Assembly: GCA_025201365.1 (NCBI GenBank)
Contig: JAIXMF010000116.1
Coordinates: forward strand, 1 to 36,498
Reading direction: 5' to 3'
Length of the DNA stretch: 36,498 nt
From: Syncephalis plumigaleata
Lineage: Eukaryota > Zoopagomycota > Zoopagomycetes > Zoopagales > Piptocephalidaceae
The position numbers and the translations under genes were made by a program. Below, one piece after another: positions 1,689-24,564 of the stretch. The notes under the pieces were generated by a model that did not search any database, was not told the DNA's origin, and was given only the letters and a program-made list of their open reading frames with translations. Numbering within the stretch: position 1 is the first letter of the stretch; every line of letters starts with the position of its first letter.

Positions 1689-2993
1689 TTAGTTATTCCT
1701 AATGGCCGGCGTTACTAGTGTGTTGTAGTCATTCACGTGATCCATTAGTATATTGAACAGCATGTAAGGCGTTTCGGCCTTGATCATAGCACTTTTTAGC
1801 TTCCACAAGCTTTTACGTTGCGCATTATATAGGTTTACTTGAGGGAGCAAGGCAGGTGGGATGTTTTTAAATTTAAAATCAAGTAAGCCACCATAAGCCT
1901 TAAAAAGTTTATCGATGAATACTTCAGTTTGCTTAATGTCATCCAGGAAAGGTTTTTTCAAGTCTGACACTATTTGACCTTGGTAATTCTGTCCATTGGC
2001 CATACTCTTTTCAAGCTCTTTGGACATAACTGTACGATCAAAGTTGATCAGCTTGACGCCATTTATGTTATTCTTCTTATCAACAGAAACCATAATATCT
2101 ATCATGGTATTGGTTAGACTTGTTCATATGATAAAAGCAATGACTTACGATCTCTTCCAATGCTATTATAGGCAACGCCTATTTTATTAATATAAATAAC
2201 ACCTAAATAGGATTGTTGTTAGTGTTAGTATTCAAACTGTTGCTACTATTGATGTACATACCTTCCATTACACGAGCGATAATATTTGGTATATGTTTGA
2301 CCCAGTCAAATGAGACTGGTCGGTCAAAGAACCCTTTCAAATACATATGTCCTTGAGGAACTTCGAACACAAAGCATCCCCCTTCTATATTTTCTGAGTG
2401 AGCATTATCCATACGTCTCAGTAAAATGCTATCTAATTCCTTCTTGTATTCTGGATTTGTAATTCCCTCAGCATACTAAATAGCAATGTGAGCTAATGTC
2501 ATTAGGCGGTATAGCTGTAGCTACTTACATCATAGAATGCCTTCACTTTTCCGTATTTCTTATTATCTTTGTAACATGTAACAAGTAAATCTTGTCTATT
2601 CCATGTAACCTTCTTTTTATAGTAAGGATAGCCGCTGGAAACTGCCCATTTCATCGGTTTAAATTTGTATTTTCCGGAGAAATGGAAAGTTATATCATTA
2701 TTACTATTATAATCTATTGTTGCTTGTATAATCATCTTCTCTGGTGATTGAGGTTGTCCTTGGTTGCTGTTTGGATGTATTGGTGTAGCTGCGTTATTCC
2801 AGTTATTGCTTCCAAATTGCATATTAGTATTTGGCTGCTGATGCCATTGCTGTCCTGCCATTGGCATTTGATTAGGATTGTTATTGGTGAATGGAGATGG
2901 TGTACTCCACATATCCGTGCCATTTGTATGATGGGATAGCATCATGCACACACACAGTGTGATAGCAGATAATGAAGTCGTGCTGTATTTCAT
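1689..2993 (-). CDS. Secreted degenerate protein-kinase-like protein, copy 1
   Basis: Unnamed family. Four exons (2993-2529, 2475-2262, 2202-2149, 2098-1689) join in frame to 380 aa. I start at MKYSTTSLSA because a signal peptide of about 25 residues begins there; an in-frame ATG exists upstream at 3053. Next come a Gln/Asn-rich stalk (about 26-85) and a kinase-like domain. The 54-base third exon carries the catalytic-loop equivalent GVAYNSIGRDHIMVS (about 235-249), where active kinases have H-R/N-D-x-K-x-x-N; here Tyr, Ser, Gly and His stand at the His, Asp, Lys and Asn positions. The DFG equivalent is N-F-D (263-265). A later Asp in DDIKQT may match the structural Asp of helix F. Inference: extracellular pseudokinase, probable effector. 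No enzymatic activity is expected. Confidence 0.72.
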
Positions 2994-3108
2994 GATTATC
3001 TCGGTCGAGTAACGTGTTGATATGTCGTCAATAAACTCGATTCTTGTAGTCACACTTGTGCTGATCTATATCGACGACTAGTGCAGTGTATTGCGTATAC
3101 TAAATGGA

Positions 3109-3329
3109 ATGGCTTTAACGTGTAGTTCTATGAGGAGACTTGACTACGGTAAAAAGAAAAAGAAGAAAGCGTAATTATTATCGATAGTCAAGTGTTGACA
3201 TTTTTTGATGATCCATTTATAGCTGTAGATACAATGATGGAGTTTAAATCTCTTACAATGACACGTGTAGTCCATACAAACACTCATATGTCATGTACCA
3301 TATTGGGACCGAATCATGGTTATGGATAG
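3109..3329 (+). pseudogene. Broken copy of the small plus-strand ORF in the repeat unit
   Basis: Nearly identical to the open copy at 5478-5702, but a deletion after the lysine run (AAGAAAGCGTAA near 3163-3174) closes the frame. The end shows substitutions (for example ATATTGGGACCG where copy 2 has ATATTTGAACTA). Product unknown. It may never have been a gene and could simply be promoter DNA of the divergent secreted gene. Confidence 0.35.
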
Positions 3330-3383
3330 CTGTTTTTGGATGTTGTATTCAAAATTGCCAACATACTATCCGTTATGATTGTT

Positions 3384-3460
3384 CTCTGGATCATTCGAAT
3401 GATGAGAATGGATACATCTGCAAATAAACACAATGCACGATGCAAACAATCTACATCTTA
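3384..3460. repeat. Junction direct repeat between tandem units
   Basis: About 75 bases around attcgaatgatgagaatgg and caaataaacacaatgcacga, at the boundary of unit copies 1 and 2. The same block flanks the dispersed copy at both ends (22711-22786 and 24955-25028), so it marks the unit boundary. Confidence 0.8.
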
Positions 3461-3870
3461 TGAATCGATATCAATCAAGACACAGTAAAAGCCCAGTATC
3501 ATACAATAATAACTAGCACCATTAAATACCATTCTTAAGGAAATGACAATGATTTCTTATGGACGTGAGTTGGATTACGGCAAGGAATAATCATTTGTTT
3601 GTCCTCTACTATATAAACTATTTCTCCATATCCATCTATTTATAAGTTGATGTTGCTTAGACATACCGAATGAACTAACAAGTCATACTACCAATGATGG
3701 TTGGAATAGATCACTCGTGTCTATGCAAACTAGTGCTGTTTGTATTGCAATGAATTGATCATTAAGCAGTCGCACATTACATGAAATATCAATCTGTCAG
3801 TATGGGTCAACATTGTCACTGGAATGATGATCGATTAAACAATCAAACATCTCTTATAAGAATGAAGCTA

Positions 3871-3876
3871 TTTATT
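3871..3876 (-). terminator. Putative poly(A) signal, copy 2
   Basis: Minus-strand AATAAA about 58 bases past the stop of the copy 2 gene, in the conserved 3' flank. Confidence 0.5.
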
Positions 3877-3933
3877 ATGATGTATCAATAGTCTAGTCAT
3901 CATTATAGTGAATGATAGCAGTTTGTCGTCTAT

Positions 3934-5362
3934 TTAGTTATTCCTAATGGCCGGCGTTGCTAGTGTGTTGTAGTCATTCATGTGATCCATCAGTATATTG
4001 AACAGCATGTAAGGCGTTTCAGCCTTGATCATAGCACTTTTTAGCTTCCACAAGCTTTCACGTTGTGCATCGTATAGCTCCACTTGAGGGAGCAAGGCGG
4101 GATCGGTGGTTCGGAAGTCAAGTGAAAGTATGTTATCGTAAGCATTAAAAAGGTTATTGATGAGCCCAGCAGTTTGTTTAATGTCTTTCAGGTAAGCTTT
4201 AGAAATCAAGTCTAACACTGTTTGATCTTCGTAAATCTGTCCATTGGCCATACTCTTTGCAAATGCTCTAAAGACAAGTGAACGATCAAAGTTGATCAGC
4301 TTGATATCATTTACGTTATTCTTCTTATCAGCAGAAACCCAGATATCTATCATGGTATTGGTTAGGCTTGTTCATATAATAAAAAGCAATGACTTACGAT
4401 CTCCTCCAATGCTATTATAGGCAACGCCTATATCATTAAGATATGCAACGGCTAAATCATATTATGGTTAGCATTATTAGTATTCAAACTGTTGCTACTA
4501 TTGATATACATACTATCCATTATATGAGCAACTATGTTTGGTAGTTGTTTAGCCGCGGTAAATGTAGGGTTTCGCGTAAGGAAAGCTCTCAAGGTAGTGT
4601 ATTCACGATGTAATTCAAACACAAAGCATCCCACTTCTTTGTTTGCCGACTGAGCATTAGCCGTACGTTTCAGTAAAATACTACTTAATTTGCTTTTGTC
4701 CACTTCATTCGTTATTCCCTCGATGTACTAAATAGTGCTGTGAGCTCATGTCATTTTACGGTATAGCTGTAGCTACTCACATCGTAGAAATCTTTAACTC
4801 TTTGATATTTCTCGTTTCCCTTGTAGCATATGACAAGGAAATTCTGTCCCTTCCATGTCGGTTTCATTTGCCATTGCGTATGCCTAGAGAACTTTGACCA
4901 TTCCAATGATGCAAATCTGTACTTTCCGGAGAAATGTATAATTATATCATCTTTAGCTTTAGGATCTGGAGTTGCATGTATGATCATTCTTTCCGACGAT
5001 TGTAGTTGTGACATATGTTGTGATTTGTCATATTTGTTACTTGGATGATCAGGAGATAATACTGCTTTACTCCATTTAGCGGGCTTAAATTTTAGCTTAG
5101 CACTTGGTTGTTGATTCCATTGTTGTCCTTGGTTGTTGTTTGGATGTTTCGGTGTAGCTACATTATTCCAGTTATTGCTTCCAAATTGCATATTAGTATT
5201 TGGCTGTTGATTCCATTGTTGTCCCGTCATTTGTATTTGATTCGGATTGTTATTGGTGAATGATGATGGTGTACCCCACATATCCATGCCATTTGTGTGA
5301 TGGGATAGCATCATGCACACACATAGTGTGATTGCAGATAATGAGGTCGTGCTGTATTTCAT
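3934..5362 (-). CDS. Secreted degenerate protein-kinase-like protein, copy 2
   Basis: Exons 5362-4781, 4727-4514, 4451-4398 and 4346-3934 join in frame to 420 aa. Same architecture as copy 1: signal peptide, Gln/Asn-rich stalk, kinase-like domain. Exon 1 carries about 39 extra residues, including a second QQWNQQP motif, between the stalk and the domain, so the stalk grew by internal duplication. The catalytic-loop equivalent is GVAYNSIGGDHIWVS and the DFG equivalent NFD, so the active-site residues are lost as in copy 1. The last exon differs from copy 1 at about 30% of residues, yet the segment SLWKLKSAMIKAETPYMLFN is identical. It is divergent from the gene at 6093, with about 730 bases between starts. 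Confidence 0.72.
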
Positions 5363-6092
5363 GATTATCTCGGTCGAGTAACGTGTTGATATGTCGTCAA
5401 TAAACTCGATTCTTGTAGTCACACTTGTGCTGATCTATATCGACGACTAGTGCAGTGTATTGCGTATACTAAATGGAATGGCTTTAACGTGTAGTTCTAT
5501 GAGGAGACTTGACTACGGTAAAAAGAAAAAGAAGAAAGTGTACACTGCTATTATCAATAACCAAGTGTTGACATTTTTTGATTATCCATTTATAGCTGTA
5601 GATACAATGATGGAGCTCAAATCTCTTACAATGACACGTGTAGTCCGTAAAAGCACTCATATGTCGTGTACTATATTTGAACTAAATCATGGTTATGGAT
5701 AGTTGTTTTTGGGATGTTGTATTCAAACCTGCTAACATACTATCCGTTATGAATGCCCTATTAGCCTTTCTGTAAACCGTTTACATACACCACATAGAAT
5801 AGAGAGGAAAAAGGATGGCGTATAGTGATAATAGTCTTACTAGTATGAAGCTAAGAGAATATAAGTGACATTTATTATTATACGAACTCGCAATGAAAGA
5901 AGTCACTACTAATCATGATGTTAAAGCATAGCGAGAGAGGTGTAACATGCACTTTTCCTGTTTATAAACGCCACTCTCTCCGCTTTCAACAATATTTCAT
6001 GAGCCGTTCTTCATCTTGTTCCATTCCATATATAAATATAAATATACTTTGTTTCTTTCTATTATTATTCCTATTTTATTGCTAGTAGTAGC
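5363..6092. other. Divergent intergenic region
   Basis: Upstream DNA of secreted gene copy 2 and, on the right, of the 1,633-aa gene. Contains the small open frame at 5478-5702. From 5753 on it is unique AT-rich sequence with a pyrimidine-rich, TATA-containing stretch (about 6020-6080) just before the ATG at 6093, a plausible core promoter. Confidence 0.5.
5478..5702 (+). CDS. Small hypothetical ORF in repeat unit (doubtful)
   Basis: 74-aa open frame with a KKKKKK run near the start and no signal peptide, membrane segment or family I recognise. It lies upstream of and divergent from the secreted gene. The equivalent regions in the other two units (3109-3329, 24680-24898) keep most bases but are frameshifted, which argues against a selected protein. 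It may be incidental or a dead gene fragment; flanking bases are equally conserved. Confidence 0.25.
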   Translation: MALTCSSMRRLDYGKKKKKKVYTAIINNQVLTFFDYPFIAVDTMMELKSLTMTRVVRKSTHMSCTIFELNHGYG

Positions 6093-9000
6093 ATGGCGAA
6101 TACGCAGCATATTGATGCCGTATTAGAACAATTTGAGGTAAGTGTTTTATTAGTTAGCCTATGAACACGTCACTTAACGTGTCATTAGTGGTTAAAACAA
6201 ACAGAATGGCTTAGTATAGACGCGGAGGCAGTTACTCGTCTCTCGTCACTAGCGGACACTCATCCTGCACGGTTCTATAGACCATTTCTGGTGTGCGCTT
6301 CAGCGAGTAAAGTGCATAGGGTGGCCAATGATTTGGGACAGCTTATTCACCTATCCAATATACTACCTAGCCATGTATTCTTTTTTAATAATCTTGATCT
6401 TGCCACTACGGTATTGGCTACGGAACCACCGCACTCTAATGGTTCTACACTCGGGCAACATGCACTTGTACTCGAATACACTCTACATATAGCGGAATTA
6501 AAGCGTTCCAACACCGTAAGAGCAATAGATATTACTGCTTATTAGATGATGTAATAACATAACGATAGATGTCAAGAGTGGAACGTGGTAAAACTGCCGC
6601 ATTCCTACTTCAATTAGAACATCGTATATCAGTATTACTCTTTGCACGAGTAAGTGATATCATGAATGAATAACAATAATAGCTATATTTATTAGTATGC
6701 TTAGGAAGCAAGCAAGAAGATTGTACCTATTTCATTATTTATTCTGTTGATAGGTCTTTTATCAGAAATCCGACATGTTGTACGAGCTGATCCATTAAGG
6801 TAATATAATATAATAGATTGATTGATTGATTGATTGAGTGATTAATTGAACTTATTTATTATACATGATAGTCGACCTAATTGGATAGATCTATTAATTA
6901 CACGAATTACCGAGTGTTCATTAGAGACAAATGATGATCATGATGCTACTACTACAGCTACTACTACTACAGGATCATGGTCTAATATATTAACAAAATT
7001 AGGTAAAGTCTATGATCGATTATCACGTACGGGTATTAGTATGGAGGAGGTAAGTAATAGTAATTGCTACTACTATTTATTTATTTATAATTCATAATTC
7101 ATAATTCATAGAATGGTGATCTACAACAGACGACACAACCGGCAATGATGGTGCATCGCTTACGTAGTTGGGTCATTCCTGGACTCATGTCAAGTATGCC
7201 ATCATTTGCACGCGCTACTCTACTATCGCAATGGAGTGAAACGATTAAGAGTCGTATGCAAAGGCTGATACAATATCCGCGGAATGCATATAGCATGTAT
7301 ATTGAAGCGATAATGGCCAGTTGGTCCTTGTTGTCGGATAACGATCGACATAGCGTACAAATTGCCATATGGCGAATGGGTCCTCATTTGTATGGTGAAC
7401 GGGCTCGTCTACTCTTCTCGTTGGCCATACAGACATCGTCGACATTTAGCGATATTATTCGACAGGAAATACCCCAGGAGTACCTGTGTCATACACCATC
7501 AAGGTAATCTATACTAGTGATCATTGAATGTTAGCACTAATGCGGTCGTGTAATATTGATTAGTATTGATGTTACATTCAAGCGATACATACCGCAACAA
7601 TTGAACTGGCTAATGTTCATGTCGTCGGCATTTTCGGAACGACATCGTATTCAATTGAATCGACTTGCGGCCACTGGCGTGAAACGACCTGTCTCGGCGA
7701 CTATGCCACCGCCCTTACCGTTTATATCGACGGATATCGATACGGAGAAACGAGAAGAGTTCACCGTTGGATCCACGCTACTCGAGGCTAAACTAGGGCA
7801 GTTGGGCATTAGTGACACGGAGCGTATAGCTCAAGAGAAACGAGAACGACTAGCCGAGCGTCTATTATTCCAATCGGCCGTTCTACTTGATGGACAGGAA
7901 CGTGGTATACGTCAACGTGTACGTTTACTACCCGCTCAAGAGCTGATCTATCATCAGTTGGAGGCATTATGCCAGCACCCGTCGGCATTGATCGCCACAC
8001 AAGCGATGCAACTCATCAATGCCTACGAACGTGATGAGCCATCCCTATTGTGGAGGGCACCACAATCTATCATTGGTAATGCAAAGATACAGGATAAATC
8101 GGCTGGACTACATCGTATACGATGCCATACCTCGTTGGTAGGTCAGATGCCACCGAATTCCGTTAACTCGACCATCAATTTCATTATGGGTATGGCTAAG
8201 TATGGATTACGAGAGAAACCGGAACTATTGGATCCTATCCTCGTCGAAGTGTTCCCCGTGTTAACCGCACTCGTACCGCATACTGGTCGTATGAGTATTA
8301 AAGCGTTACGCAAGAACAAGTTGGAAGCGTTGATTACGACTGCCAATAACTTCTGGTTACCTGGTAGTAATCAAGATGGCCATGATGCACTAGTGGAGAT
8401 CAATCGTGGGCAAGCATTGAACGGCCAGTTAAAGTCGCAACTCATGCGTACTACGTTCATTCGTATAGCACAGGCACAATGGTTGACCTCCATCATACGA
8501 CATAATCCGGAGGAATGTTTGGAACTATCCAAAGTGATGACGAGTTTCATACCGGATCTACCCCATGTCAATAAATCGAGTGCATCCGATGGACGACAAC
8601 TTCTTGAGGCACTAGTGCATTTACGTGCATGTGCCTGGCTTAACTTCTTAACGGCAATGATCGATCTAATCGACGAGCATCGTGCCAGTGCCGAGAATGT
8701 AGTCTCTATTGCCGCAGGATTGGATCGAATTCTACGCTACTGCTACGAGGATACGCTATTACTACCACAAGTGTTAATGGCCTATGAACGGATAAGTAGA
8801 CGATTCCGCGCGTTATTAGCACAAACATCCGGTGATCCGGTTATTCTTCCCGCGTTGTTTGAGGTATACGTTGCCTTACATCCTAAACCTGCTGCCAATC
8901 AAGTGGAACTAGCATGGAGAACCCTACGTGACATTAGTCCGGATGAATTCCTATTTTATGCACTATGTGCCGTTGCACCCATTATCGTCGATGACACCTA

Positions 9001-11347
9001 TAACAATGATGATCACGATACGAATGGTATGCAGGATGATAATAGAACAAATTCACAAAAGGATAAAGTGAACGAACAAGATGCCAGTAATGAAGATACT
9101 AGTGAACAGACTATGAAGCAGAAGACACCGGAACAGCAAGCATGGCTATTCTTTCAATTACTACTCGTGTTAGATGTACGACATCCTGATCATATTGCTC
9201 TGGCCACCTCCACCACGATAGCATCATTTAATCAGGCAGCAGCATCTGCATCTACTACCATGCGACGAGGTCGTACATTCTCCAACTTTGATAGTAGTAA
9301 TACTTTCTTAACTGGAAATACATCCACCAATACTGGTAATAATAGCAATCATCATAACAATAGTAATAGTAATAGCAACGGTAACAGCAATAATCATACT
9401 AGTAATACTAGTAATAATAGGAGTAGTAATGATATCATGGTCATGAATTATAATACAATTAGTATGGCAGCCACTACACCTCAGTATAACTCGGTATTGA
9501 TCGATGTTAATAATAGTCGACATGTTACTGAGACATTGAAACTACTAGTTACTATAATTGCGTATAATCCTACATTACGTATTGCAGAACAATTCACGAA
9601 ACTATTACGTTTGTTATTGCCTAATTGTACGGCTAATGATGTGCTATCATCGTCTATCGATGCATTATCACCTGTTATGCGTGATTTCGCTAAACATTCA
9701 AAGTATCTGGCAGGTACTCCTTCGTCGCAGGCTACAGCGTCACCCGTCAATGAGCATCCATCATTGCAATCGACGTTGGCATCCTCGTTGGAAACACGCT
9801 CTATACTGAGTCATCTACCATCTAGTCATCATCATAGTAACAATCATGGTGATGATAATGATAATAAACGTATGGAGAATGATCATATTATTATACGACA
9901 AGAGTTTATTCGTTTATTGGGTATCTACATCGATCACACGGGCCAATTGTCGTGGCGACAAGCGAAGTGTGCCTGTCTCGTTATTAGATCGACGTTGAAG
10001 GACCTAGTATCCGCTAAGGTGGCACATAAAACGGAATGGGTAGGCCAGTTCCTCGATAGTCTAGCGCAAATATCCGATAGATCACTCGTGTTGAGAATAC
10101 TCGAATTCTTCCTACGTCAATTGGCACCCATCTTCGGCAAGCTATTTGTTAGCGCCGATTACAGTGGGCTCATTGACGGATTATCCCGTTTACTCGGTGT
10201 ACACAACTATGGCAATATTCCATTGTTACATGAGTTGATCCTTGATCGTTACGTGCAGCCGATGCTACTCGGTCTTGATCGACATTTGGCAGTACGTGAT
10301 CTCGTCGGTATTACAGGTCGATTGATCGCCGCGCTATTACTGCACAGAGATGCGGATGTGGCCACCGTGCTTGATGGCGTATCACCGCAACTACAATGTC
10401 AACTGCTACCACGTCTATGTACGGCATTGGCACAACTTACCCTTGATAATAATAACAGCAATAATAGCAATAATACTGGTGTACCTAGTCATCATCGTAG
10501 GAATTCAGCTAGATCGACCTCTCTTATATGGCATTATCCATTACAATTGATTGAGACCAACTATATGGCCGTGCTCACCCTGCAATCATCCAAGTTGGCG
10601 AGTGATTCGCGTCATCTCGGCCCTAACGCTAAGCGGGCCAGTTTACTCGCTGTAGGCGGGATGGGCGCAGTGGAAGATGCCACCATGTACACGATGGTGA
10701 GTCAACTCGCCTTATCACTTCGAGTCATTCTACTCGTACTTGGTCGACATCCTCTATTGATGACACCATCCATGCGTCATTGGATTGGTCGTATGGTGCG
10801 TGCGTTCCTTGCCTTCTTCGGTAATTGCTTGACCACGTATGTCGCAACCGATATCAGTTCAACGAGACGTAGTGGCATGCGACCACCCTCACCCGTGCCT
10901 AGTACGAGCAGTAATGGTATGGCACCACATCGTCGTATGCATACCGTAGGACCGATGGCCACCGTTGCTCTTACTGTATGGACATTAAGTGAACAACTAC
11001 TAATGGATAGACATTTAATAATTCCATGTCAATTATTACTACGACAAGTGTTGCAATCGACGATAGATGTTGATTGGTGGCAACCACCTTCTACAACTAC
11101 AGGACCTAATACTAATGGAAATGATGGTTGCTCACTACCATTAGATACTGCTAATGATCATCGACAAGCATTATTAGTATCAACGAGTGGTGGATTAGCA
11201 GAACGATTACACGATACGACGAATAGAGCAATGACACGTATTTATAGTTATCTAGTTGAAGGGTATCGTCCTGATTTTGGTACAATAACTACACGATTGA
11301 ATCAGATACAACAAGATTTAAATATGCTTCGATTAGCGAATGCATAA
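6093..11347 (+). CDS. Large helical-repeat (HEAT/ARM-like) protein, unrecognised
   Basis: Seven exons (6093-6137, 6189-6515, 6569-6649, 6705-6799, 6872-7049, 7112-7503, 7564-11347) join in frame to 1,633 aa with no break. The product is mostly amphipathic helix of the kind seen in HEAT/ARM scaffolds, with a hydrophobic helix near residues 155-170 (PISLFILLIGLLSE). A charged linker lies at about 852-895 and an Asn/Ser-rich low-complexity tract at about 958-995, with shorter Asn tracts near 1335. No signal peptide, kinase, GAP or other catalytic motif is visible. Size and helix content resemble large scaffolds such as the Mon2, UNC80 or Furry classes, but I cannot assign it to any of them. It converges on the histidine kinase gene, 298 bases apart. 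Confidence 0.75.
9319..9430. repeat. AAT/AGC codon-repeat tract (poly-Asn/Ser)
   Basis: In-frame run of AAT, AGT and AGC codons inside the large helical-repeat gene, giving an Asn/Ser-rich loop. Similar but unrelated tracts occur in the histidine kinase gene, suggesting triplet expansion is common in this genome. Confidence 0.75.
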
Positions 11348-11370
11348 TCCATGTAATATAAATATATATG

Positions 11371-11376
11371 AATAAA
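11371..11376 (+). terminator. Putative poly(A) signal of the gene at 6093
   Basis: AATAAA 24 bases after the TAA stop at 11347, in AT-rich DNA of the convergent intergenic region. A minus-strand AATAAA at 11401-11406 could serve the facing histidine kinase gene. Confidence 0.5.
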
Positions 11377-11645: not shown

Positions 11646-14600
11646 CTACATAGCATCATTTGAACGGTTGGATGAGAATGAATCGGTAATAGGAATGAAT
11701 GATGGAGGTAATGCTGCTGATGATGATACAACTATATCTTTCTCAATAGTAGTGGTGCTCGTAGTAGTAGTACTCGTAGTATTACTAGTAGCAATAGTTG
11801 CGGTAATGGGTGTTGCACTAGTTAATAATGAAGTAGCAGATGTATCTGTACTACTACTACTACTGCTACTGCTACTGCTACTACTATTATTGCCTTCTAA
11901 TAATGGTCCTGTATCATTAGCATCATCTGTAACTTCATCTTCCTCGTCATCCTCATCTTCATCCTCATCCTCTGGACTATCACGTAGGTTGATTCTATCA
12001 CGATAACTGCGTAACACATCAACAGGGAATGGTTTCGTCAAGTATTCCCAGATACCGGCACTCGAGGCACGCGCCTTCAAGTCTTCACTTGTATCCGCGG
12101 TATTCAACACGCATAATGGTTCACGCGGCCAATCTAGTTCACGTAATTGATGGACCGCTTCAATACCGTCAATACCGGGTAGATGGAAATCCATCATAAT
12201 CAAATCGAGCATTTGTGGTGGATCCGATCTACGTAATTGTTTGGCACGCGCCACCGCTTCCTCGCCTGAAGTGGCCGCTAAGCAGTCAAATCCAACTGAC
12301 TCCATACGACGTAATAGTAAACGTAAATTGATGGGATTATCGTCGCAGCATAATGCTAATGGATTAGTGGACTGTGCTGGTGATGCTGCACGCTCACTAT
12401 CTGTACCACTACGTTCACGTCGTGGTTTAGGCGGTACACCCAATGAAGGAATCGAGTGTAACGATGGGGTACCCGTACAAATGTGTGAACCCGACGATAA
12501 TGGTAATGGATTATCCTTGATGTATTCACCATTATTATCAGGTGTACTACTAGCAGTATTAGTAGTGGTAGTATTAATGGCAGTGGCAGTGGCAGTACTA
12601 GCAGACATTATGGTTGATTCATTATGTAATGCTGAAGGTGCAATTGTTGCTCCTGTAAAATAAGAATGACGATCATGAGCAGTGGGAGTGACGGCTGCAC
12701 GACGTGATCCCTAAATATAATAAATATCATAATATCATAATAACATGATTAATTAATTAACTGTATAACAAATGTCCATCACATTTCTTATATGTGAACT
12801 CACCTTTGTGAATGATGAGGCAGATGGTGGACCACTAAGTGCGTATAAACTTGAAGGGCCCTCAAAGTAAGGACACCAATCGGTACAAGCGACAATCGGT
12901 TCCTCAACAGTAGGCGGTGTTGGACAAGTGAACGCCATCATTGAGTTATTGCCGGCATTCATATTGGGATCGAATGCCCATGGCGAGGTTGGTGGTATCG
13001 ATAATCGAAGTTGGCCCGGTGCTGGCGCTGTTCTATTTGAACTAGACGTCATCAGTGCTGCTCTTCTAGGAGAAGTGGCAGCAGTTGTCGTGGCAGTATC
13101 TTCTTTAGACATGGCCAACGCCTTTGCACTTATCATGACTACTTCATCATTTGATCGATTTGTCGTCGTATTACCACTGCTATCATTGTCATGATCATGA
13201 TCATTGTTGTTGTTGTTGATGTTGTTGCTGGCCTGACCATTTGATTGACTAGTTGTTGCTGCTGGACTCACTTCATTTATAGGTGCAAGTGTATCTGCTT
13301 CGATACTAGTGACATCCACTTCCTCCAAGGGTTGTGGTGGTGGTGGTGGTGGTGGTGGTGGTAGTGCCTGCTGAATAGATGGTAGAGATAATTGCTCCAT
13401 AGGACTATCCAATCTATTGCTTATTCCATCGTTGTGAGTAAACTCATCCGGTGACATGGAGGAGCCTGCACTCATAGGGAAGGAAATCCAACTTTGATGA
13501 TGAGCAGAATAGGCATGTCCTATCTCTTCCTCATTATCCGATACAGTCAACCAATTCGACGATATTGCATGTAGACTACGATGTCGTCTATGTCGTCGGG
13601 ATGATCGATGTCCCGATGACGATGACGATGCACCTGGACGTCGTCTTCCTCTACTATCACGTTGTCTTAATAGTGCACCACCATTACTAGTGTTGTGATG
13701 ATTGCCATTAGATTGAAACGAGGCTGATGCTGATGCTGGTGGATTTGATGACGTGGTGGAAGCATTGGCGGTACCTGACAATTTCAACGTATCATCATCA
13801 TCAGCATCTGGACTAGCGCGTGAATCATCTGTATAGATTGAAATAGACGATTTACGTGAATGGCTGGTGGATTGACGACCTTGACTATCCACAGATACAT
13901 TACGTCTATGTCCAGATGGTGCTGAATATTCCGAGTGCATCGAAGTAAATCGGAATTGTTGCATGAATCCTTCGTCGTATGGTATAGATCGATTGAAATA
14001 GGATTGTCCTTCGTTAGCCGATGGTGTTGCGTCATCACGTTTACTACTGGAAGAATTGCGTCGTGTATCGTTGCTACTCGCCAAGAGTGATGTAGTTGCC
14101 AGGTGATGATTATTGCTATCATTGCTTTGATTTCGATTTCGATTTGTTGTATCATGAATGTAGCTACGTGATGCAGCTGTACTATTCTCATTATTCACCG
14201 AAATGTTCGGTAAGGGGCGTAGTGTGGAAAGAGGAGGTGACCACGTAGATGTTAGGCATGATTCGGTATAAGCGCCCGTATTGTGTCCACGAGTCCGTAG
14301 ACGATGTCGACAAAAGTAATCATGCTCGCAGCTTGTGGTATGTATCATATTAGCATCCATATTGGAGTGTGATGATGTTGCCGTCTCTTGATTCGTGTAC
14401 ATCATTTCATTTGAAACGGGAACACTCTGTGGGTGTGCTGGTGGCGACACATTACTCGTTGTATCCACCTCATCGTAAAATGACTTTTCTGCTCCTGCTG
14501 CAGATGTTGTAGATGTTGCAGATATCGCACCTGCTCCTCCAGCTATTGTTGTTGTTGTTGTTTGGCCATGAGTAGTAGAAGATACATGAGTACGATCACG

Positions 14601-16989
14601 TATACTGCTGGAACGTGAAGCAATCAATTCCGATCGTTGATTCAGTCCTCCTCCTAATCTTGCTCCTAATGGTGTGGTGAACATGGAAGATGGCAATACC
14701 ACTTGGAATAGTGTACCATATCCTTTACGTGAACACACTCGAAGTCGGACACCAAGTTGATCGGCGTAGGTTTTAGCGATATACAAACCAAGACCTGTGC
14801 CTCGATAGGGTCGCTCCTAATCAGTACAACAATGAGTATGGCGAGTGTAATTAACTGCATATTATAGAAATGTTGACACTTACTGTAGCACGAGAACTAG
14901 TGGTAAATGGCATCCATACTCCTTTCTTCATAAAATCGGTATCCATACCGCATCCACTGTCCCGTATAGATATAACAATACCATCTTGCGTGTCGTTTAA
15001 TTCATCGTCAAATGTTGGCTTTGATCGTTTAGGTAAATTCGGCTCATTGAATCTAATCTCAGAGGGATGTCGTTTATATCGTTTAGGTTTACCGCCACCT
15101 AACGAGGTGAGTAATCGTTTCCACGAGAAGCGTGACGATAGTGATGTCGCCGATTCTATACTTGATGTCGATCGACTTGATCCACTTCGACTGAGACCGC
15201 AACTAGTGGCAACATCATGGTCGTCATCGTCATCAGCATCAGCATCATGATCATCGTCACCAGTATCATTATTATTGTCATTGCTGTTATTGCTATCGTT
15301 TCTCATAGTGAATCGTCGTGATAGTTCGCTAAATATCGTCGATGACTTATCACGAATATTGTTACTAGTACTAGTACTAGTTGCTGTTGCTGTTGCTGTT
15401 GATGCTGTTGATGTCGTAGTAGTCATAGGAGTAGTAGTCCTTGATCTCGATCGAATAGATGGTCTCTTCGGTACACGTGATATACAAATCCATACACTAC
15501 CATCTACGTGAGCTGTGAATTTAAGCGCATTCGATAAACCGGCTGTTAACACTTTGGTGAGCATTGCACCATCGGTACGAAGTGTTAAGCGATCCAGTCG
15601 AATACTTCGTGTAATACACCGATGTACAGGCACTTTGTCACGACTATGACTATCGGCGATCAGTGCATCCATGGCATTGATGAGTGCCTTCAATGGGAGT
15701 TCGGCATAGATGGGCCGAATCGGTCCACGATGAATGTTGGAGTAGCTCATCACATTCTCTAGGGTTTCGCTTAGTGCTTGCGCGCTCTCCTTCAACGTGT
15801 GATGCCAGTTATTAACTTCCGGTCGTTTCTGTATGACAGATAAATCGGTCGATCGATTTGGCTGGTTCATTTCTCGTAGTACTTCAAGTGCACCAAGAAC
15901 TCCTATAATACGAATACAAATTTGTATTTGTTAGTAAAAAGAAAACAATACAGCATTACTATACTACTACTACTACTACTGCTAGTATCACACAAATAGT
16001 CAACCTACCATGTAAAGGTGTACGTATTTCATGGGAAAGCGACTCGATCAACTCGTTTCGTTGTCGACACGCCGTGGCTAATCGTTGATTCAGTTGACGA
16101 TACCCGTACATGACAAGTAGATGCAGACCGGCACTCGTGCTAACCAGCCACATATCGATTATATTGACATCGCGCATAAACAAATGAGAAAATAGTAGAA
16201 CGGTGGCAAGGAGCAATCCGGCAATTGGTAGTTTAGCAAACGATGTTGGAATGTTAATACTAATTAGCAAACAAGATATTACAATGTCGAATAATGACAA
16301 TCGATCATGACAATAGTTAGTAGTTGCTCGTTTCAATATATATATATATGGCCATTAATTATCGCTACTTACAAATAGAAATAATAGTATATGAGGGTTG
16401 ACTTCTCGCCACCCGCTAGAATTCGAATCCATACGACGATAAGTGCACAGGCTAAACGCCATCTGGATAGTTCCCGTTGACGATATTGATCAAGTTGCTC
16501 CTCGTTATTGGATGATGCACCAAACATATTTGTTCTATCATTATCAAATGCACTATCCCGAGTGGCAGTGGCAGTGGCAGTGGCAGTAGTGTTTCCATCG
16601 TTATTAATGTCGTTCAGTCCCAGAATAGTCTTTAATCTCTTGGTGGGCGATTCGTTAATATGCTCGCCAGGCGCTAGATCTTCTATGTTTAACGTTGAAT
16701 TGGTAATAATGATTTCATCCGTGCAATGAACTACATTATACATTGCCTGTCGAACTATCCCTCTAAACCAGGCAAGATAACCGCCTCGGTAACGGCGACG
16801 TCGCTGTCCCACACCAAATAGTATGTAGTCAACGATATTGGCCAGTGCCATTAGGAAGGGTCTATCCGCTAAAACGATACTGGCCAACGAGGCTAGTAGC
16901 AAGTTCAAGTGCAACACCTCTGATAGCGTTCTACGATTGAGGCCATCAAGCCAGATGAGCAGTTGCTGGCGATAAGCCTCTAAACTCAT
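11646..16989 (-). CDS. Membrane-bound hybrid histidine kinase (HisKA-HATPase-REC)
   Basis: Phosphorelay sensor kinase. Exons 16989-16373, 16259-16009, 15902-14884, 14816-12804 and 12710-11646 join perfectly in frame to 1,654 aa. About five hydrophobic segments occupy residues 21-260, with no PAS or GAF domain visible. HisKA follows, with LSHEIRTPLHG and the phospho-accepting His near 282. The HATPase domain has the N box (LSNALKFT, Asn near 414), G1 (DSGCGMD, near 604), F box (WMPFTTSS) and G2 (GTGLGLYIAK). A low-complexity insert of about 160 residues, rich in Ser/Thr and Asp, lies between the N and G1 boxes. A disordered linker of roughly 700 residues leads to the receiver domain: DD pair in LALCCDDNP, phospho-Asp near 1474 in MMDFHLPGIDG, Lys in YLTKPF near 1526. 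All key residues are present. Partner HPt and response regulator are not in the window. Confidence 0.9.
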
Positions 16990-17867
16990 ATTGAAGTAAT
17001 TGGACGGACAAACGAGCGAGCAAGCGAACGAACGAACGAACAAAGAGAGGCAAATGCGTCAAGTGTATGTATGTGTATGTATGCAAGCTGCTACGGTAGT
17101 GACCGCATCTGCTGCTCCAATAGCAACCACACCAACAGATAAGGTAAATGCTGTGTCCGTGGTTATGACTATCGCTCGTGAAGACACAATAGAAATGCTA
17201 TACTAGAGGAGACAAAGAGACTGCGCGAGGATATAGAATAGTAGTGGTGGTAAGAAGATGGTATAGAGTAAGCGTGGTAATTGTAACAGTGGGAATCGTA
17301 GCAATAGGTAAAATAAAAATTCAACAATGAGAAACCTGTGCGTGTGTGCGTGTGTGCTACAACGATAGTAGTTGTAGTAGATAAAGAAAAGTTACTAATA
17401 TTCGCAATCGCATAAGCTAATTAATACGTAAATTAGCTTACACTATATTGTATATAATTTTAGATAAATAAATAGGTATATATAAGTATATATATCGAAA
17501 TAGAAATAGAAATAGAGAAATAACGCTTATAAGAAATAGATATGAAAAAGTAAGCAACTGACTCAACAGTAGATGGTCGATAAATGTTAAAGAATAATAG
17601 GAAAGACTCTACTACAATGATAGAGAAAATCGTCGATGTTACTATTGATATATAATATATATATATTGAGAATGATAGACCGATTTACGTTAATAGAATA
17701 AAGATCGTTGACAATTATAATTCAATAGTATTGAGAGGGAAAAAAGAGGAGAAATCGACAAAGTAAGTTTCATAGAATTTTACTGCTCTCAATGTGAAAT
17801 AAATAGTGTGGTTGGCGTAGATAAAGGGAAGCTTGTTGTATACAAAATAGTAACCAGCGTAACGCTA

Positions 17868-17893
17868 ACGACGACGACGACGACGACGACGAC
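17868..17893. repeat. GAC trinucleotide microsatellite
   Basis: Eight or more tandem gac units in non-coding DNA. Confidence 0.85.
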
Positions 17894-18931
17894 CCTTCAA
17901 CTTCTTTGTCACTATTGTACTACAAGTATACAGCTTAAAAAAGAAAGAACGAACGAGAGAGAAAGAGAGAGAGAGCGAGAGATGAACAACCACGGTAGGA
18001 CTAGAGCCCCAATACCTGACCAAATAAACGAGTAAGAAGAAGCAGCCGATAAATATCAACAGTCATACATATAGATATATGTACATACACATGTGTACAC
18101 GTACGTGTATGCGCGAGTATGTGTATGTTGCACGTATCCTGCTGACAGTACACACCGAACAAAGCACAATCAACGATGGTTGCTATGGTGTACGTGTTAA
18201 GGTTAAATGATTGCTATTGTTACCATTACACTATTACAAATATTCATGTTCTATTACCATTGTTACTAATAGAATGGTAACTCGTAGATGCTCTCCTTTT
18301 TTTCCTATATAGATTCTACTACTAGTACTACTACTACTTGATTTATCCGAATATCCGTTATTGTCTTTCCCCCATGATAACCATACTGCTAGTGCTAGTA
18401 TTATTGATGTAGCTATTACTCCTACTTTTACGCGCATTCTCACCAATCGTGTTCCTATTCGTACTTGTACCACTATCATTGGTATCATTATGCATGTAGA
18501 TAGAATGATAGAATGATAGAATGGGATAGGATGAGATGGGATGGAATATACGACCGCATATAGGTGCACGTGCCAGTGGTCAATAAGGGGTCAGCGACAT
18601 ATTTGTACGCCCCTAATGGCCATTGCATATCGTCGCAGATAAGTCTGCCGGTCCAGATGGTCGATGGATAAATGTAGTAGGACAATACAGGATGTATGTA
18701 CAACGTACATTCAACAAACCCATGCACATCTCTACTATCATGTACAACATCGTAAGTATAGTGCTCTCTTTGTTTTATCGAATAAATGACTGTATAGTGT
18801 CAATGTATAAAACGAATGTTTCAAGCATTTTACTAAATACATTTATATATATATCTATAGGTTATAGGTTAGTAACAGCTGTTTGTTTATGTACTATGTT
18901 GACAATGTCAACAATATAGTATGATGTGTAT

Positions 18932-18957
18932 GATGTGTGTGTGTGTGCGTGTGTGTG
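18932..18957. repeat. TG dinucleotide microsatellite
   Basis: tgtgtg run with one tgcg interruption, non-coding. Confidence 0.8.
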
Positions 18958-19283
18958 ACCGTGGATTTGTCGTGTCATGTTAAAAAAAGAAAGAGGACCC
19001 GTACAGTAATTTGTACGTGTGCGTGTACGTGTGTGGTAGGGTAGAGTAGACAGTAATGGTGCGTAAGGGAGTAAACCGGTGTAACGTGAAATCAGTCTGT
19101 CAAAGACGACAGTTGCATCAAGGATGAGCAAGAGATATCCATTCTATTAAACAGTTGAATTATATCTGCATGTCTTTTACTAATTAGATGGTGGCATTTA
19201 TTAATTTTATTGATCATGGTATAGTATAGTAAAGAAAGAAGCACGGCTTCTTGAATGTTGATCATCCTACTTCTTGCTATAGC

Positions 19284-21155
19284 CTATCGATCTTTACCTA
19301 GTTCCACCTTTTGACGAAGGGCTCTATCGGCGTTGTAGATGAATGCATCGATTAGACTGGCCACTGTAAAGACACCACCCACAACAGCGCATACACTCGT
19401 CAAAAAGGTAAGGAAGGAGCGATGTGTTTCAGTGTAAATGATAACCATAGGTGAAATATCATAGTTGAAGAAAAGTCCTATTCATGCATAATATATATGC
19501 GTATGTGTATGTGTATATATATGTATGTGTATGTGTATACGTGTGTGGATGCATGAATGCATAGATGCACATAGTATGCAAATAGAAATGCGTTAGTATC
19601 GATGTAAACGGTTGAGATGACGCTCGACATGAATGCATACGCATGTATTTTGAACACGGTCATATTTTAATAAAGGGAAATGAACCGGTGCAACAATACA
19701 TGACGAGACACATTGTCATTGTCATTGTCATGTCATGTCAAATGAATCTAGCGCTGTATATCTCTTACCTGGCAAACTACCGCTAGCTGGTTGTGCATGT
19801 TGTGTGGCCGCATACTGATTCGTGTGGATGGTTGTACCATTGAGGTATACAGCCTTGGTGCCTACAACTTTAATGAAATACTGATAGTCGCACGTATCCT
19901 CTAACAAGTTAAATGAATACAATTGCTTAGCATAATAATGACAACGAATACTTCTATCTATACAACACTACCTGGGCAATCATGCGTGTAGACATCCTTT
20001 GATTGGCCATCAAGTGGATTGATAACGTCATTGATCTTCTCTCCAAATCGAAGTTCGTGTATTTCATGCGAGAAATCGTATTGACGCGACAGATACGGCA
20101 TCAAGTCGTGAACATGCGCACCTGATGACGAGAAAGTGCGACCCAACGCCAAATGGAAATTACCCGCTACTTTACTAACACCTAGTCTACCGTGTAGGTT
20201 ACAGCCCTCCTTCTCTTGTGCCTGCATCTTTTCCGACCAATGCTCTTTAACACACTACATAAATTAACGGACAATGATTAGTAGATTGACATGGGCGAGA
20301 CTAGTATATATCTATATCTATATATATATATGGGCACACACATCAACCACTACTTACTTGTTCTATTTTATCCGTATTGGTAAATGACCATCCCTTACGC
20401 ATGTAAGCATCGCGTACTTCTTCGCAAGTATTACAACAGCCGCTAGGTGGCTTTTCTCCACCATAACAATCGCCGCAGTAATTTGGATCTTTCGCTTTCA
20501 CTAGACCTTGTACACTTTTAGCCGCACCAGTTGTACTATCACCTAGTACTATAGACAATATAGAGTTAATAGTTAACTAATGATTAATGGACAAGCATGT
20601 CATATTTCCTCTCTCTCTCTATATATATATATATCCTTACCATTTTCTTGTTCCTTTTCAATAACATGACCATCGGGACTAAGACGCACCTTGACAATAT
20701 CATGCGATGTATCCGATTGCTCCTCACCCGAGGCATCCATCACATGAATACCCAGCACTAATGACAATTAGTTAAAAGAAAGGAGAAAAGCATAAACATA
20801 AAAGTAATGGATATGCCTACTTACCATAGCAAGGAATCTTGGGTAAGGTAATATTCAATTCAATGTTCAAACGATCTTTACGCGCTCTATCCACAATCAA
20901 TTGCGGCTGAATGGATACTTTCATGTAGTCTCTGAACTCGGATATTAGTAGCATTACCATAATAATACTACTGATGATAGTCACTGGTATCATTGGTAAT
21001 ATGAATGAATACGATATACTCTATTATATCTATCTATCTACAACTAGTAACTTACCAAGTGCTCCCGTCTTTGTACGAATACGAAAGTCATCGAGCGTTT
21101 TAGCAAACGCATCAAAGCGCTGCACATTCTCGAATAGACTTCCTTGCTTACCCAT
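19284..21155 (-). CDS. ERV46: ERV46/ERGIC3 ER-Golgi cargo receptor
   Basis: Erv46 cycles in COPI/COPII vesicles with Erv41 as a cargo receptor between ER and Golgi. Seven exons (21155-21056, 20983-20825, 20757-20641, 20548-20358, 20254-19972, 19900-19769, 19477-19284) join in frame to 391 aa, the usual length. Features in order: short cytosolic N-terminus (DAFAKTLDDFRIRT), first membrane span (VTIISSIIMVMLLIS, about 34-48), a large lumenal domain with the family cysteine motifs YCGDCYG and SGCCNTCEEVRDAY and the block GCNLHGRLGVSKVAGNFHLA, then a second span (FLTSVCAVVGGVFTVASLID) and a short basic tail. Intron 6 is long (291 bases) and TA/TG-rich. Erv41 is not in the window. Confidence 0.95.
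19495..19545. repeat. TATG/TA-rich simple repeat in ERV46 intron 6
   Basis: tatgtgtatgtgtatatatatg-type sequence within the longest ERV46 intron. Its expansion may account for the intron size. Confidence 0.7.
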
Positions 21156-22070
21156 ATTCGTGTTTTAACAAGCAATAAACTTGACGAACAGCCGGTAATA
21201 AATAGGTGTTGCTACACACGTACACACTATACTTTTAGATTGCTTTTTTGATCAAGAAATAGCTAAACGATAGATGGAATCAAAATAGTAGGGTATGTGT
21301 TGATAATGTACCAGTGTATAAAATGTAGATAATCACTGCGTATCAATACCAACAGATGTAGTGACAAGAAAGAGATGTGCTATAAACCGAGTCAATCAAT
21401 TAGTAAGAGCAATGAAACCACAAGAGTGATGATACGTTTAAGGGAAAGAGGAATGAACGGTGGCTAAACGAAAGGACGGAATGTAAAGGCGTAATTGGCA
21501 CAAATAAACAAACGAGCGGTGAGTGAGAGTGTTGAAAACAGCGTAACCTATTTTGAATAGCAATCAATCAATTAATTGATAGGAGATAGAACTTGTCCAT
21601 TCTTAAATGAAATGATTAGCAATAACAGCGAACAAGAGCAGCTTATTGCCATCATCCCTCTCCTATGTCTTTTGTCATTTCATAAGTAATGATATTCAAT
21701 GCATATGGATATACAGAGATGTAACAATGATTAGAATAAAGCATTCATGTCTATGATAAATGTATGATGATTACATGTATTAGTTCGCTGCAAGTTTAGA
21801 GGGTAGCCGATTGAACGGTAATGATATAGACATTTGTACTTTTGTACTAATGGATAGTAGAAAGCAGTCAACTGTACGCTGCATCATTTCATTATTTATT
21901 GGTTATTCGTCGAAAAGTGGCAATGATTGCTAATAGTTGTGTGTTATACTCCTCGTTAAACGTCATAGTTTATTTGATTCTATCTAGTCTATCGTTCCAT
22001 GATCAAATAAGAATAGTTTTCCTCATTTGTTATGAGCGTATCATACGAGTAGTCGTTGAGTGTAGTGGCG
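21156..22070. other. Intergenic, upstream of ERV46
   Basis: About 0.9 kb of AT-rich DNA with no gene I can support. The left part should hold the ERV46 promoter. A minus-strand AATAAA (21895-21900) lies about 170 bases past the stop of the Cys-rich gene and may be its poly(A) signal. Confidence 0.5.
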
Positions 22071-22421
22071 TTAATCGCGTTCGCAGTACTTGAGAATGTT
22101 GAGTTCATCTGGCTTATACTTGTCGTTTCCTCGTCGTTGGTGCCAGCCATCGGGACAAGTATGACACGAAATACCATTCACTATGCAATGGACCATTAAG
22201 TATGGTTTACCAGTATCTGGTGTGCACATTTTAGTGGCACCAGTTATTTTAAGCTTGTGGTAGCCATCGGGACAATCGGGACATCGGCCAAATATTGTTG
22301 CACATCTAACCGGAATATTTCCCGGTTCTACTCGTTGCTTTGGTGGAGTAGCAGCCGCCATAATACCTCCAACCACTGAGGCTACGACGATTGTAAAAGT
22401 GATGGCACTTGGTAATTTCAT
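22071..22421 (-). CDS. Small secreted protein with duplicated four-cysteine motif
   Basis: 116 aa, single exon, no family recognised. Signal peptide of about 23 residues (MKLPSAITFTIVVASVVGG onward). The mature chain has exactly eight cysteines in two repeats of C-x6-C-x2-C-P-D-G-[YW]-H-x(n)-C, with n about 11 in the first and 19 in the second (CPDGYH and CPDGWH). This regular spacing with a conserved PDG-aromatic-His core points to two disulfide-stabilised modules made by internal duplication, as in many secreted fungal effector-like proteins. It lies next to the dispersed copy of the secreted kinase-like gene and on the same strand. Function unknown; effector or binding role is inference. 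Confidence 0.75.
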   Translation of the reverse strand: MKLPSAITFTIVVASVVGGIMAAATPPKQRVEPGNIPVRCATIFGRCPDCPDGYHKLKITGATKMCTPDTGKPYLMVHCIVNGISCHTCPDGWHQRRGNDKYKPDELNILKYCERD

Positions 22422-22710
22422 TATCGGTGTTAGCGGTAGTGGTGGAGGAAGGCAGTGTCGTTACTGTGTAATAAGATAAAAATAAACGATAATTGAAGCT
22501 GCGAGTTGTGAGTGATAATATCAATGATAGCCAGACTATTGACATGTCTTTATATCCTGGTCAAATACTCCATTAACCTGGTAGTCATTTTGATTTTCAA
22601 TAATACAAACCTACTTGCTGCTGCTTAAAAATAGATACACAGGCCTATTCAATTGCAGCCAAGTGTTTGACTACAAGTTTGCTTTTGCTTTTTCTTTTTT
22701 TCGCCTATAC

Positions 22711-22786
22711 CTGGACTGTTCGAATGGTAAGAATGGATACATCTACAAATAAACACAATGCACGATACAAACAATCTACATCTTAT
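22711..22786. repeat. Left junction direct repeat of copy 3
   Basis: About 75 bases matching 24955-25028 and 3384-3460 with few differences, starting ctggactgttcgaatgg. It is in the same orientation as the right copy and lies 2244 bases away, the tandem period. Confidence 0.85.
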
Positions 22787-23196
22787 GGATCAATATCGAT
22801 CATGGCATAGTAAAAGCCCAATATCAGACAGTGATAGCTAGTGTCATTAAAGTAGCATTCCTAAGGAAATGGCAATGATTTCCTATGCATTTGAGCTGTA
22901 TTACGGCAATGAGTAATCATTTGTTTGTCCTCTACTATATAAATCATTGCTTCCCATCCATCTATTTATAAGTTGATGCTGCTTAGACATACCGAATGAA
23001 CTAACAAGTGATACTACCAATGATGATTGGAATAGATCACTCGTGTCTATGTAAATTAGTGTTGTTTGTATTGCAATGAATTGATCATTAAACAGTCGTA
23101 CATCACATGAAATATCAATCTGTCAGTATGGGTCAACATTGTCACTGGAATGATGATCGATTAAACAAGCGAACATCTCTTATAAGAATGAAGCTA

Positions 23197-23202
23197 TTTA
23201 TT
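23197..23202 (-). terminator. Putative poly(A) signal, copy 3
   Basis: Minus-strand AATAAA about 58 bases past the stop of the copy 3 gene, at the position conserved in all three units. Confidence 0.5.
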
Positions 23203-23259
23203 ATGATGTATCAATAGTCTAGTCATCGTTATAATGAATGATAGCAGCTTGTCGTCTAT

Positions 23260-24564
23260 TTAGTTATTCCTAATGGCTGGCGTTGCTATTAGGTTGTAGT
23301 CATCATTGAATAATATGGAATTAGACATCATGAAAGGAATTTGGGAAGCGTGCATAAGTGCGCTTATATTCTTCAAGCTTTCACGTTGCGCATCGTATAG
23401 CTCCACTTGAGGGAGCAAGGCAGGATCGGTGGTTCGGAAGTTAAGTGTAAGTATTTTATCGTAAGCATTAAAAAAGTTATTGATGAATGCAGCAGTTTGC
23501 TTAATGTCTTTCAGGAAAGCTTTATACATCAAGTCTAGCTCTTTTTGATCTTCGTAAATCTGTCCATTGGTCATACTCTTTGCATACCCTTTGAAGATAA
23601 CTGTACGATCAAGGTTGATCAGTTTGACGCCATTTATGTTGTTTTTCTTGTCTTTAGAAACCATAATATCTATCATGGTATTGGTTAGGCTTGTTCATAT
23701 AATAAAAGCAATGACTTACGATCTCCTCCAATGCTATTATAGGCAATGCCTATATCATTAAGATATTTAACACCTAAATAGGATTGTTGTTAGTGTTAGT
23801 ATTCAAACTGTTGCTACTACTGATATACATACCTTTCATTACACGAGCGATAATATTTGGTATATGTTTAACCCAGTTAAATGAAAGTTCTCGGTTAAGG
23901 AACCCTGTCAAATACATATATTCTTCAGGGACTTCGAACACAAAGCATCCCCCTTCTGTATTTGCTGACCGAGCATTATCCATACGTCTCAGTAAAATGC
24001 TATCTAATTCCTTCTTGTATTGTGGATTTGTAATTCCCTCAACATACTAAATAGCAATGTGAGCTAATGCCATTAGGCGGTATAGTTGTAGCTACTTACA
24101 TCATAGAATGCCTTCACTTTTTCGTATTTCTTATTATCTTTGTAGCATGTAACAAGGAAATTTTGCCCCTTCCATGGTATTATTTTTTTATAGTAAAGAT
24201 GGCCAGTTTTATTTGGCCATTTCAATGGGCCAAATTTGTATTTTCCAGAGATACGGAAAGTTATATCATTCTTATTATTAGGATTTACTACTGCGTCTAC
24301 AATCATCTTCTCTGGTGATTGAGGTTGTCCTTGGTTGTTGTTTGGATGTTTCGGTGTAGCTACATTATTCCAGTTGTTGCTTCCAGATTGCATATTAGTA
24401 TTTGGCTGCTGATTCCATTGTTGTCCTGCCATTTGTATTTGATTCGGATTGTTATTGGTGAATGATGATGGTGTACTCCACATATCCATGCCATTTGTGT
24501 GATGAGATAGCATCACACACACACACAGTGTGATTGCAGATAATGAGGTCGTGCTGTATTTCAT
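23260..24564 (-). CDS. Secreted degenerate protein-kinase-like protein, copy 3
   Basis: Exons 24564-24100, 24046-23833, 23773-23720 and 23669-23260 join in frame to 380 aa. Signal peptide and stalk are nearly identical to copies 1 and 2. The kinase-like signature is clearest here: GVKYLNDIGIAYNSIGGDHI followed by KLINLD, which lines up with a subdomain VIb-VII pattern (K-Y-L-N-x-I-G-I-A-H-N-D-I-K-P-D-N-I in active kinases). The positions for His, catalytic Asp, Lys and Asn hold Tyr, Ser, Gly and His, and the DFG equivalent is NLD. The C-terminal 35 residues differ from the WKLKSAMIKAETPYM version of copies 1 and 2, whereas the last residues (ATPAIRNN) are the same, suggesting a mosaic. It is the complete unit flanked by direct repeats. 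Confidence 0.72.

Follow-up and report, generated by a model that had tools for sequence, protein, structure and literature searches.

Here, we describe a large family of kinase-related proteins in Syncephalis plumigaleata (Zoopagales, Zoopagomycota), a species of a genus termed ubiquitous mycoparasites in a title cited by PMC6784888 and not known as a pathogen of humans, animals, or crops. Three of its genes lie in the stretch of DNA analyzed here, the 36,498 nucleotides of contig JAIXMF010000116.1 (positions 1 to 36,498, forward strand), which is referred to as a whole as the window. We consider it fairly probable that the family consists of secreted, non-catalytic, protein-binding pseudokinase heads which emerged from a Syncephalis kinase lineage and act at the host-fungus interface.

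All three genes are encoded on the minus strand and are divided into four exons each by three GT..AG introns of 50 to 62 bp in phases 0, 1, and 1:

1689..2993, minus strand: gene 1 (W1), 4 exons, 380 aa, with a signal-like N-terminus, a Gln/Asn-rich stalk, and a pseudokinase domain; NCBI model P0005
2529..2993, minus strand: gene 1 exon 1, signal-like N-terminus MKYSTTSLSAITLCVCMMLSHHTNG, stalk, and N-lobe strands; VxK Lys replaced by Thr (LLVTC)
2262..2475, minus strand: gene 1 exon 2, spanning the end of helix C to helix E, with the GCFVFE strand
2149..2202, minus strand: gene 1 exon 3, degenerate catalytic loop GVAYNSIGRD; HRD His replaced by Tyr, HRD Asp by Ser
1689..2098, minus strand: gene 1 exon 4, (H)IMVS..KLINFD with DFG Asp replaced by Asn, a short activation segment without APE, and the helix F Asp kept (DDIKQT)
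3934..5362, minus strand: gene 2 (W2), 4 exons, 420 aa (exon sum), longer stalk; syntenic with locus L004 on contig C223, which matches NCBI model P0003
5362-4781, 4727-4514, 4451-4398, 4346-3934, minus strand: gene 2 exons
23260..24564, minus strand: gene 3 (W3), 4 exons, 380 aa; syntenic with locus L012 on contig C223, which matches NCBI model P0006
24564-24100, 24046-23833, 23773-23720, 23669-23260, minus strand: gene 3 exons

These spliced genes had been proposed by an earlier sequence-only reading, and all three are present. For gene 1 the exon joins are identical to those of the S. plumigaleata model P0005 (363 aa), whose start is the second Met, 17 residues downstream of the start in our model and within the signal-like stretch. 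The loop and KLIN[FL]D motifs on which that reading was built are borne out in every window gene: gene 1 contains LLVTC, GVAYNSIGRDHI, and KLINFD; gene 2 contains FLVIC, GVAYNSIGGDHI, and KLINFD; and gene 3 contains FLVTC, GIAYNSIGGDHI, and KLINLD.

The kinase reading first made from these motifs is supported by profile comparisons with shuffled controls, a Pfam match, an intron position, a residue table, and a weak structural model, and kinase descent of the family is, at the level of sequence computation, well supported. We compared a profile of nine family members (A2, one row of which carries a typing error at its start) with three Syncephalis proteins annotated as having a kinase-like domain (P0008 to P0010), located via a kinase gene of the S. 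plumigaleata genome. The hhalign alignment has a probability of 97.6 (E, 3.1e-12) over 259 columns at 14% identity, and runs from the N-lobe to beyond helix F, taking in the catalytic loop and DFG. Repeat runs score 77.9 (E, 3.3e-10; 198 columns), 70.9 when the most distant member is removed (E, 3.3e-9), and 70.6 against the kinase domains alone (E, 1.6e-9). In this last setting, none of 100 column shuffles exceeds 24.5, and the score of the reversed profile is 20.7. Such profile similarity to the protein kinase-like superfamily lies beyond chance and points to homology. When the family profile is run against PDB sequences, 66 matches are obtained at E<=10, with kinases accounting for 59 of the best 60 (best match, HIPK3; E, 0.0096), in the register that the sequence-only reading had suggested.

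In Pfam scans, most single members scanned fall below thresholds and noise families appear at comparable E-values (ATP13, 6.9e-4; PADR1_N, 0.004). Single-sequence matches are therefore insufficient alone for the kinase case, although one member, L020, passes PF07714 (24.0 bits; cut-off, 23.1). A search of PDB sequences with the mis-annotated member P0004 (NCBI BDF22DRAFT_775365) returned no matches. The model of this protein diverges across the catalytic-loop exon, seemingly in a wrong frame, and the script-made model of locus L024 shows the usual motif there; P0004 is retained in the structure alignment (A3) despite its wrong row across that exon. Structure prediction followed by a fold search, as proposed in the sequence-only reading, gave a mixed outcome: all 50 listed VIA rows (PDB) are kinase domains, mostly over residues 67-357, but the predicted model with which they were retrieved is of low confidence (predicted local distance difference test, 49), its order of helices and strands being kinase-like.

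Gene structure points in the same direction. The first intron of gene 1 is in phase 0 and follows KAFYD, 15 residues beyond the Cys of VTC, and an intron of P0008, the one gene of P0008 to P0010 that was read, is likewise in phase 0 and follows EAFR, 15 residues beyond the Cys of VKC. In a second group of intact-looking kinases, here called C112-type and located on contigs C112, C351, C371, and C358, a phase-0 intron follows the corresponding EAF stretch (AAF once) in all eight loci examined. As far as gene models can tell, this shared phase-0 intron after helix C is an independent mark of kinase descent.

The nearest relatives of the family that we observe are kinases of Syncephalis itself: P0008 from S. 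plumigaleata, P0009 from S. fuscata, and P0010 from S. pseudoplumigaleata. Like the family, they combine a hydrophobic N-terminus and a low-complexity stretch with a kinase domain; unlike it, they look intact, keeping the VKC Lys, HGD or HSD, the catalytic-loop Asn, DFD, and the PE of APE, and they pass Pfam PF00069. Their match to FunK1 (PF17667) is weak (16.0 to 19.3 bits; cut-off, 24.1), and for the pseudokinase-family members scanned with Pfam no FunK1 match, above the cut-off or otherwise, is listed. The C112-type kinases, a second, multicopy group, have signal-like starts and have kept their FIKC, HHDIK, N, and DFD motifs intact; together with P0008, they are candidate active secreted kinases:

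C112 (L052-L055, L059), C351 (L056), C371 (L057), C358 (L058): C112-type kinase loci; C2 (L060) and P0008 are listed with them

Fourteen loci share at least 60% identity with a single intact-looking kinase whose start is signal-like, a count in which near-identical contigs are unmerged and which includes one locus with a stop and one partial locus.

To these intact-looking relatives we compared the active-site residues of the family, aligning 43 members with nine kinases (P0008 to P0010 and six of the eight C112-type loci, L056 and L058 being omitted as their models contain a stop). The family rows are script-made gene models, many of them with spurious stalk introns; L007, L031, L035, L040, and L043 have further odd introns, and L035 may be broken. 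All nine kinases keep the VxK Lys, HRD His and Asp, the following Lys, the catalytic-loop Asn, and the DFG Asp. Among the 43 family members, the VxK Lys is never found (Thr in 18, Ala in 11, Val in 7, Ile in 4, Leu in 2, and Ser in 1), which confirms a loss that had only been suspected from the window. The HRD His is also kept in none (Tyr in 38), nor is the HRD Asp (Ser in 33), and the Lys after it is kept in one. APE is absent from all 43, with a gap in 42 and, in L050, a KPK insert. Retention of the catalytic-loop Asn (8/43; His in 33) and of the DFG Asp (5/43; Asn in 21, His in 13) falls into separate subsets with no overlap. The sequence-only reading had described the same replacements in every copy; this stands for the three window genes, but identical replacements in all copies are rejected for the family at large.

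Other positions are held in common. Asp replaces the DFG Gly in 34/43, a substitution shared with the intact relatives, and 42/43 have the alpha-F Asp. The helix-C Glu is kept in only two members, at a column where the alignment is uncertain, because just six of the nine kinases have Glu there. The 26 models with just the three introns all lack the Lys, His, Asp, and APE, and all keep the alpha-F Asp. Loss of the VAIK Lys, the HRD Asp, or the DFG Asp defines a pseudokinase, and by this measure the family qualifies. The residue table thus supports a family that is catalytically dismantled and presumably inactive.

In a tree, all 43 models, including the distant L050 and L051, are grouped apart from the nine kinases (support, 0.987), although with only nine kinases, which do not form one group, the rooting is weak, and one internal node has a support of 0.0. 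Because the 43 members group together against the kinases, the family seems to have lost Lys, His, Asp, and APE before it expanded, within the limits of that rooting. In the distant relatives L050 (contig C80) and L051 (contig C340), the poly-Gln stalk is long, a KA-rich insert is present, the DFG position reads GFG, and the catalytic-loop Asn is retained.

Rather than the three copies first described, the family comprises 54 loci fetched across the genome (32.6 Mb, 383 contigs), the window's three and 51 more, with whole-genome protein searches giving 103 exon matches in one case and 142 in another. Stop-free, alignable models were obtained for 43/54 loci, the other 11 being broken copies or fragments. 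The three introns, in phases 0, 1, and 1, recur in 40/43 models, and 26 have no others (gene 2 being counted by its three real introns). Near-identical pairs connect many loci (18 pairs, each sharing 93% identity or more across a minimum of 1,200 bases), and merging such copies leaves approximately 37 loci. A word-filtered search for the family in other species found five proteins at E<=0.01 among 2,683 candidates, all from S. plumigaleata and none from S. fuscata or S. pseudoplumigaleata; the word pre-filter limits this result, so that absence elsewhere is not shown.

Positions 3582-36387 of the window are collinear with C223:719137-751999 at approximately 97% identity (overall pairing, window 1-36387 with C223:717801-751999), and the two stretches look like haplotypes. 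Since the window contig is apparently an alternative haplotype of a large contig, copy counts in the assembly are inflated; synteny is confirmed for two partner pairs only, W2-L004 and W3-L012. The syntenic C223 stretch contains two family copies versus three in the window, the difference falling in one tandem repeat:

1337..5712, no strand assigned: tandem duplication with genes 1 and 2, repeat spacing 2245-2373 bp including flanks; single copy on syntenic C223

The window flank 1-1337 runs directly into the single gene on C223, which suggests that the window haplotype carries one tandem copy more, either gene 1 or gene 2, and that copy number varies between haplotypes at this locus.

Residues 1-25 of the window proteins resemble a signal peptide, with a charged start followed by a hydrophobic stretch (9-mer hydropathy, 2.7-3.0 in the three genes), and the first residues are conserved in the family. 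On this basis of hydropathy and conservation, secretion of the family proteins is likely. The 59 residues that follow form the Gln/Asn-rich stalk recognized in the sequence-only reading, with Gln and Asn together making up 36% in gene 1 and 41% in gene 3, versus 11% in the gene 1 domain.

Signal peptide and stalk are alike among paralogs, while the head is diversified. Across 41 members, the median synonymous divergence (dS) is 0.30 for signal peptide plus stalk (820 pairs), whereas the two lobes reach 0.81 (820 pairs) and 1.20 (799 pairs). Restricting the comparison to a domain dS of 0.4-1.5 leaves 702 pairs, with medians of 0.31 for signal peptide plus stalk and 1.07 for the domain, the former being lower in 695. 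Near-identical partner pairs (11 of the 18 were used) show the reverse, with a stalk dS of 0.16 and lobe values of 0.049 and 0.058; a neighboring long open reading frame (ORF) gives 0.051 between the window and C223. Stalk divergence is therefore low among paralogs yet high between partner copies, which argues for exchange between paralogs.

In the head, the ratio of nonsynonymous to synonymous divergence (dN/dS) between partner pairs is 0.43-0.46, versus 0.07 for the neighboring ORF at 7541-11347, 0.11 for 31589-33943, and 0.37 for 14851-15930, the last with few changes. Among paralogs the C-lobe median is 0.5-0.8, with some pairs above 1. By comparison with their neighbors, the heads are thus fast-changing but still constrained, and these ratios are no proof of positive selection.

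We propose that the source of the family would be a secreted kinase lineage, still represented by intact-looking members in S. plumigaleata, S. fuscata, and S. pseudoplumigaleata. One branch would have multiplied after losing APE, both the His and the Asp of HRD, and the Lys that anchors ATP, each gene exporting a common delivery part (signal peptide and Gln/Asn-rich stalk) that bears a variable kinase-fold head. Where the parasite meets its host fungus, this head would bind proteins without catalysis: it might sequester a host protein, in the manner of ROP5 in Toxoplasma, or, like Fam20A with Fam20C, bind a co-secreted active kinase and tune it. We commit to host proteins as more likely partners than the parasite's own kinases. 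Secretion, loss of activity, binding, and an effector role in parasitism are all steps that we infer.

Kinase-fold proteins that use other residues exist, SelO and SidJ being examples, and the heads might likewise be enzymes of a different chemistry, for which "pseudo" would merely mean non-canonical. Such enzymes would fit the 43/54 stop-free loci with dN/dS mostly below 1, as well as the Asp at the DFG Gly position (34/43) and the near-universal alpha-F Asp. However, the Lys and the HRD Asp are always lost, the DFG Asp and catalytic-loop Asn mostly so, and a conserved alternative active site is unlikely because the replacing residues differ between paralogs; we regard this explanation as decidedly improbable. 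That the head is not related to kinases at all, its motifs matching by chance, could draw on the 14% identity of the hhalign alignment and on the low-confidence model, but is very improbable indeed in view of the shuffled and reversed profile controls, the Pfam match above cut-off, the shared intron, and the kinases filling 59 of the best 60 PDB sequence rows and all 50 listed structure rows.

A lineage-specific multigene family under relaxed constraint, driven by duplication and gene conversion and with little function in most copies, would account for the 11/54 broken or fragmentary copies, the haplotype difference in copy number at the window locus, and the C-lobe dN/dS among paralogs. It sits poorly with 43 stop-free models, an alpha-F Asp in 42 of them, and the intron phases preserved in 40, as well as with a pooled dN/dS below 0.5 between partner loci, and we hold it to be improbable. 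A more serious contender, if still unlikely, is that the heads are secreted activators of co-secreted active kinases and not host-binding proteins. Intact-looking kinases are indeed encoded in the same genome (14 loci and P0008), and the pseudokinase Fam20A activates Fam20C in the secretory pathway (PMC4421793). Set against this, many variable heads facing few kinase subfamilies would better suit diverse targets, and the polymorphic Toxoplasma pseudokinase ROP5 interacts with host GTPases, which ROP18 phosphorylates, and not with ROP18 itself, according to PMC3386190. Binding of host proteins by non-catalytic heads is the function we favor.

Elsewhere in the window, between genes 2 and 3, a minus-strand frame at 22071-22460 encodes a small protein whose start is signal-like and which has two Cys-rich CPDG[YW]H repeats (MKLPSAITFTIVVASVVGG...); it is a candidate secreted protein and has no Pfam match. 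A hybrid histidine kinase is represented in pieces at 11646-16354 (minus strand), along with long stretches rich in Ser and Asn; its HisKA and HATPase matches fall below cut-offs, and that to the response regulator receiver lies above. At 30023-34625 (plus strand), a match to a Nup159/214-type beta propeller is followed by a Glu-rich stretch and FG-type repeats, and this is probably a nucleoporin gene. Finally, a frame with a hydrophobic stretch is observed near the window end at 35200-35619 (plus strand); its Pfam matches are weak and below cut-off, and its tail resembles a protease propeptide.

Secreted kinase and pseudokinase arsenals are known in apicomplexans. Toxoplasma possesses about 50 secreted kinases and pseudokinases (PMC6442604) and is a parasite exporting both kinases and polymorphic pseudokinases, as with ROP18 and ROP5 (PMC3386190); Syncephalis is predicted to do likewise. 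Unlike the fungus, Toxoplasma is an apicomplexan that delivers these proteins from rhoptries, and the likeness is one of strategy. Fam20A and Fam20C similarly pair a pseudokinase with a kinase in the secretory route (PMC4421793), but they are atypical kinases. Among the papers listed in searches of the open-access literature we found no title or abstract start on a fungal secreted pseudokinase family, a search that does not exclude mention in body text or in subscription papers. A secreted set of parasite pseudokinases is thus already known as a kind, while the Syncephalis lineage, its origin, and its arrangement appear new.

Tentatively, and with somewhat less than even confidence in the picture as a whole, we suggest that a fungus-parasitic fungus may have independently evolved a ROP-like arsenal of intact secreted kinases and dozens of secreted pseudokinase heads. 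Its delivery part would be homogenized by exchange between paralogs, while the heads would diversify, vary in copy number between haplotypes, and bind either proteins of the host fungus or the parasite's own secreted kinases. If true, this would be a second, apparently independent arsenal, making the export of dead kinases a repeatable solution, and obligate mycoparasites would gain a concrete class of candidate effectors that could be compared with intact relatives encoded alongside them.

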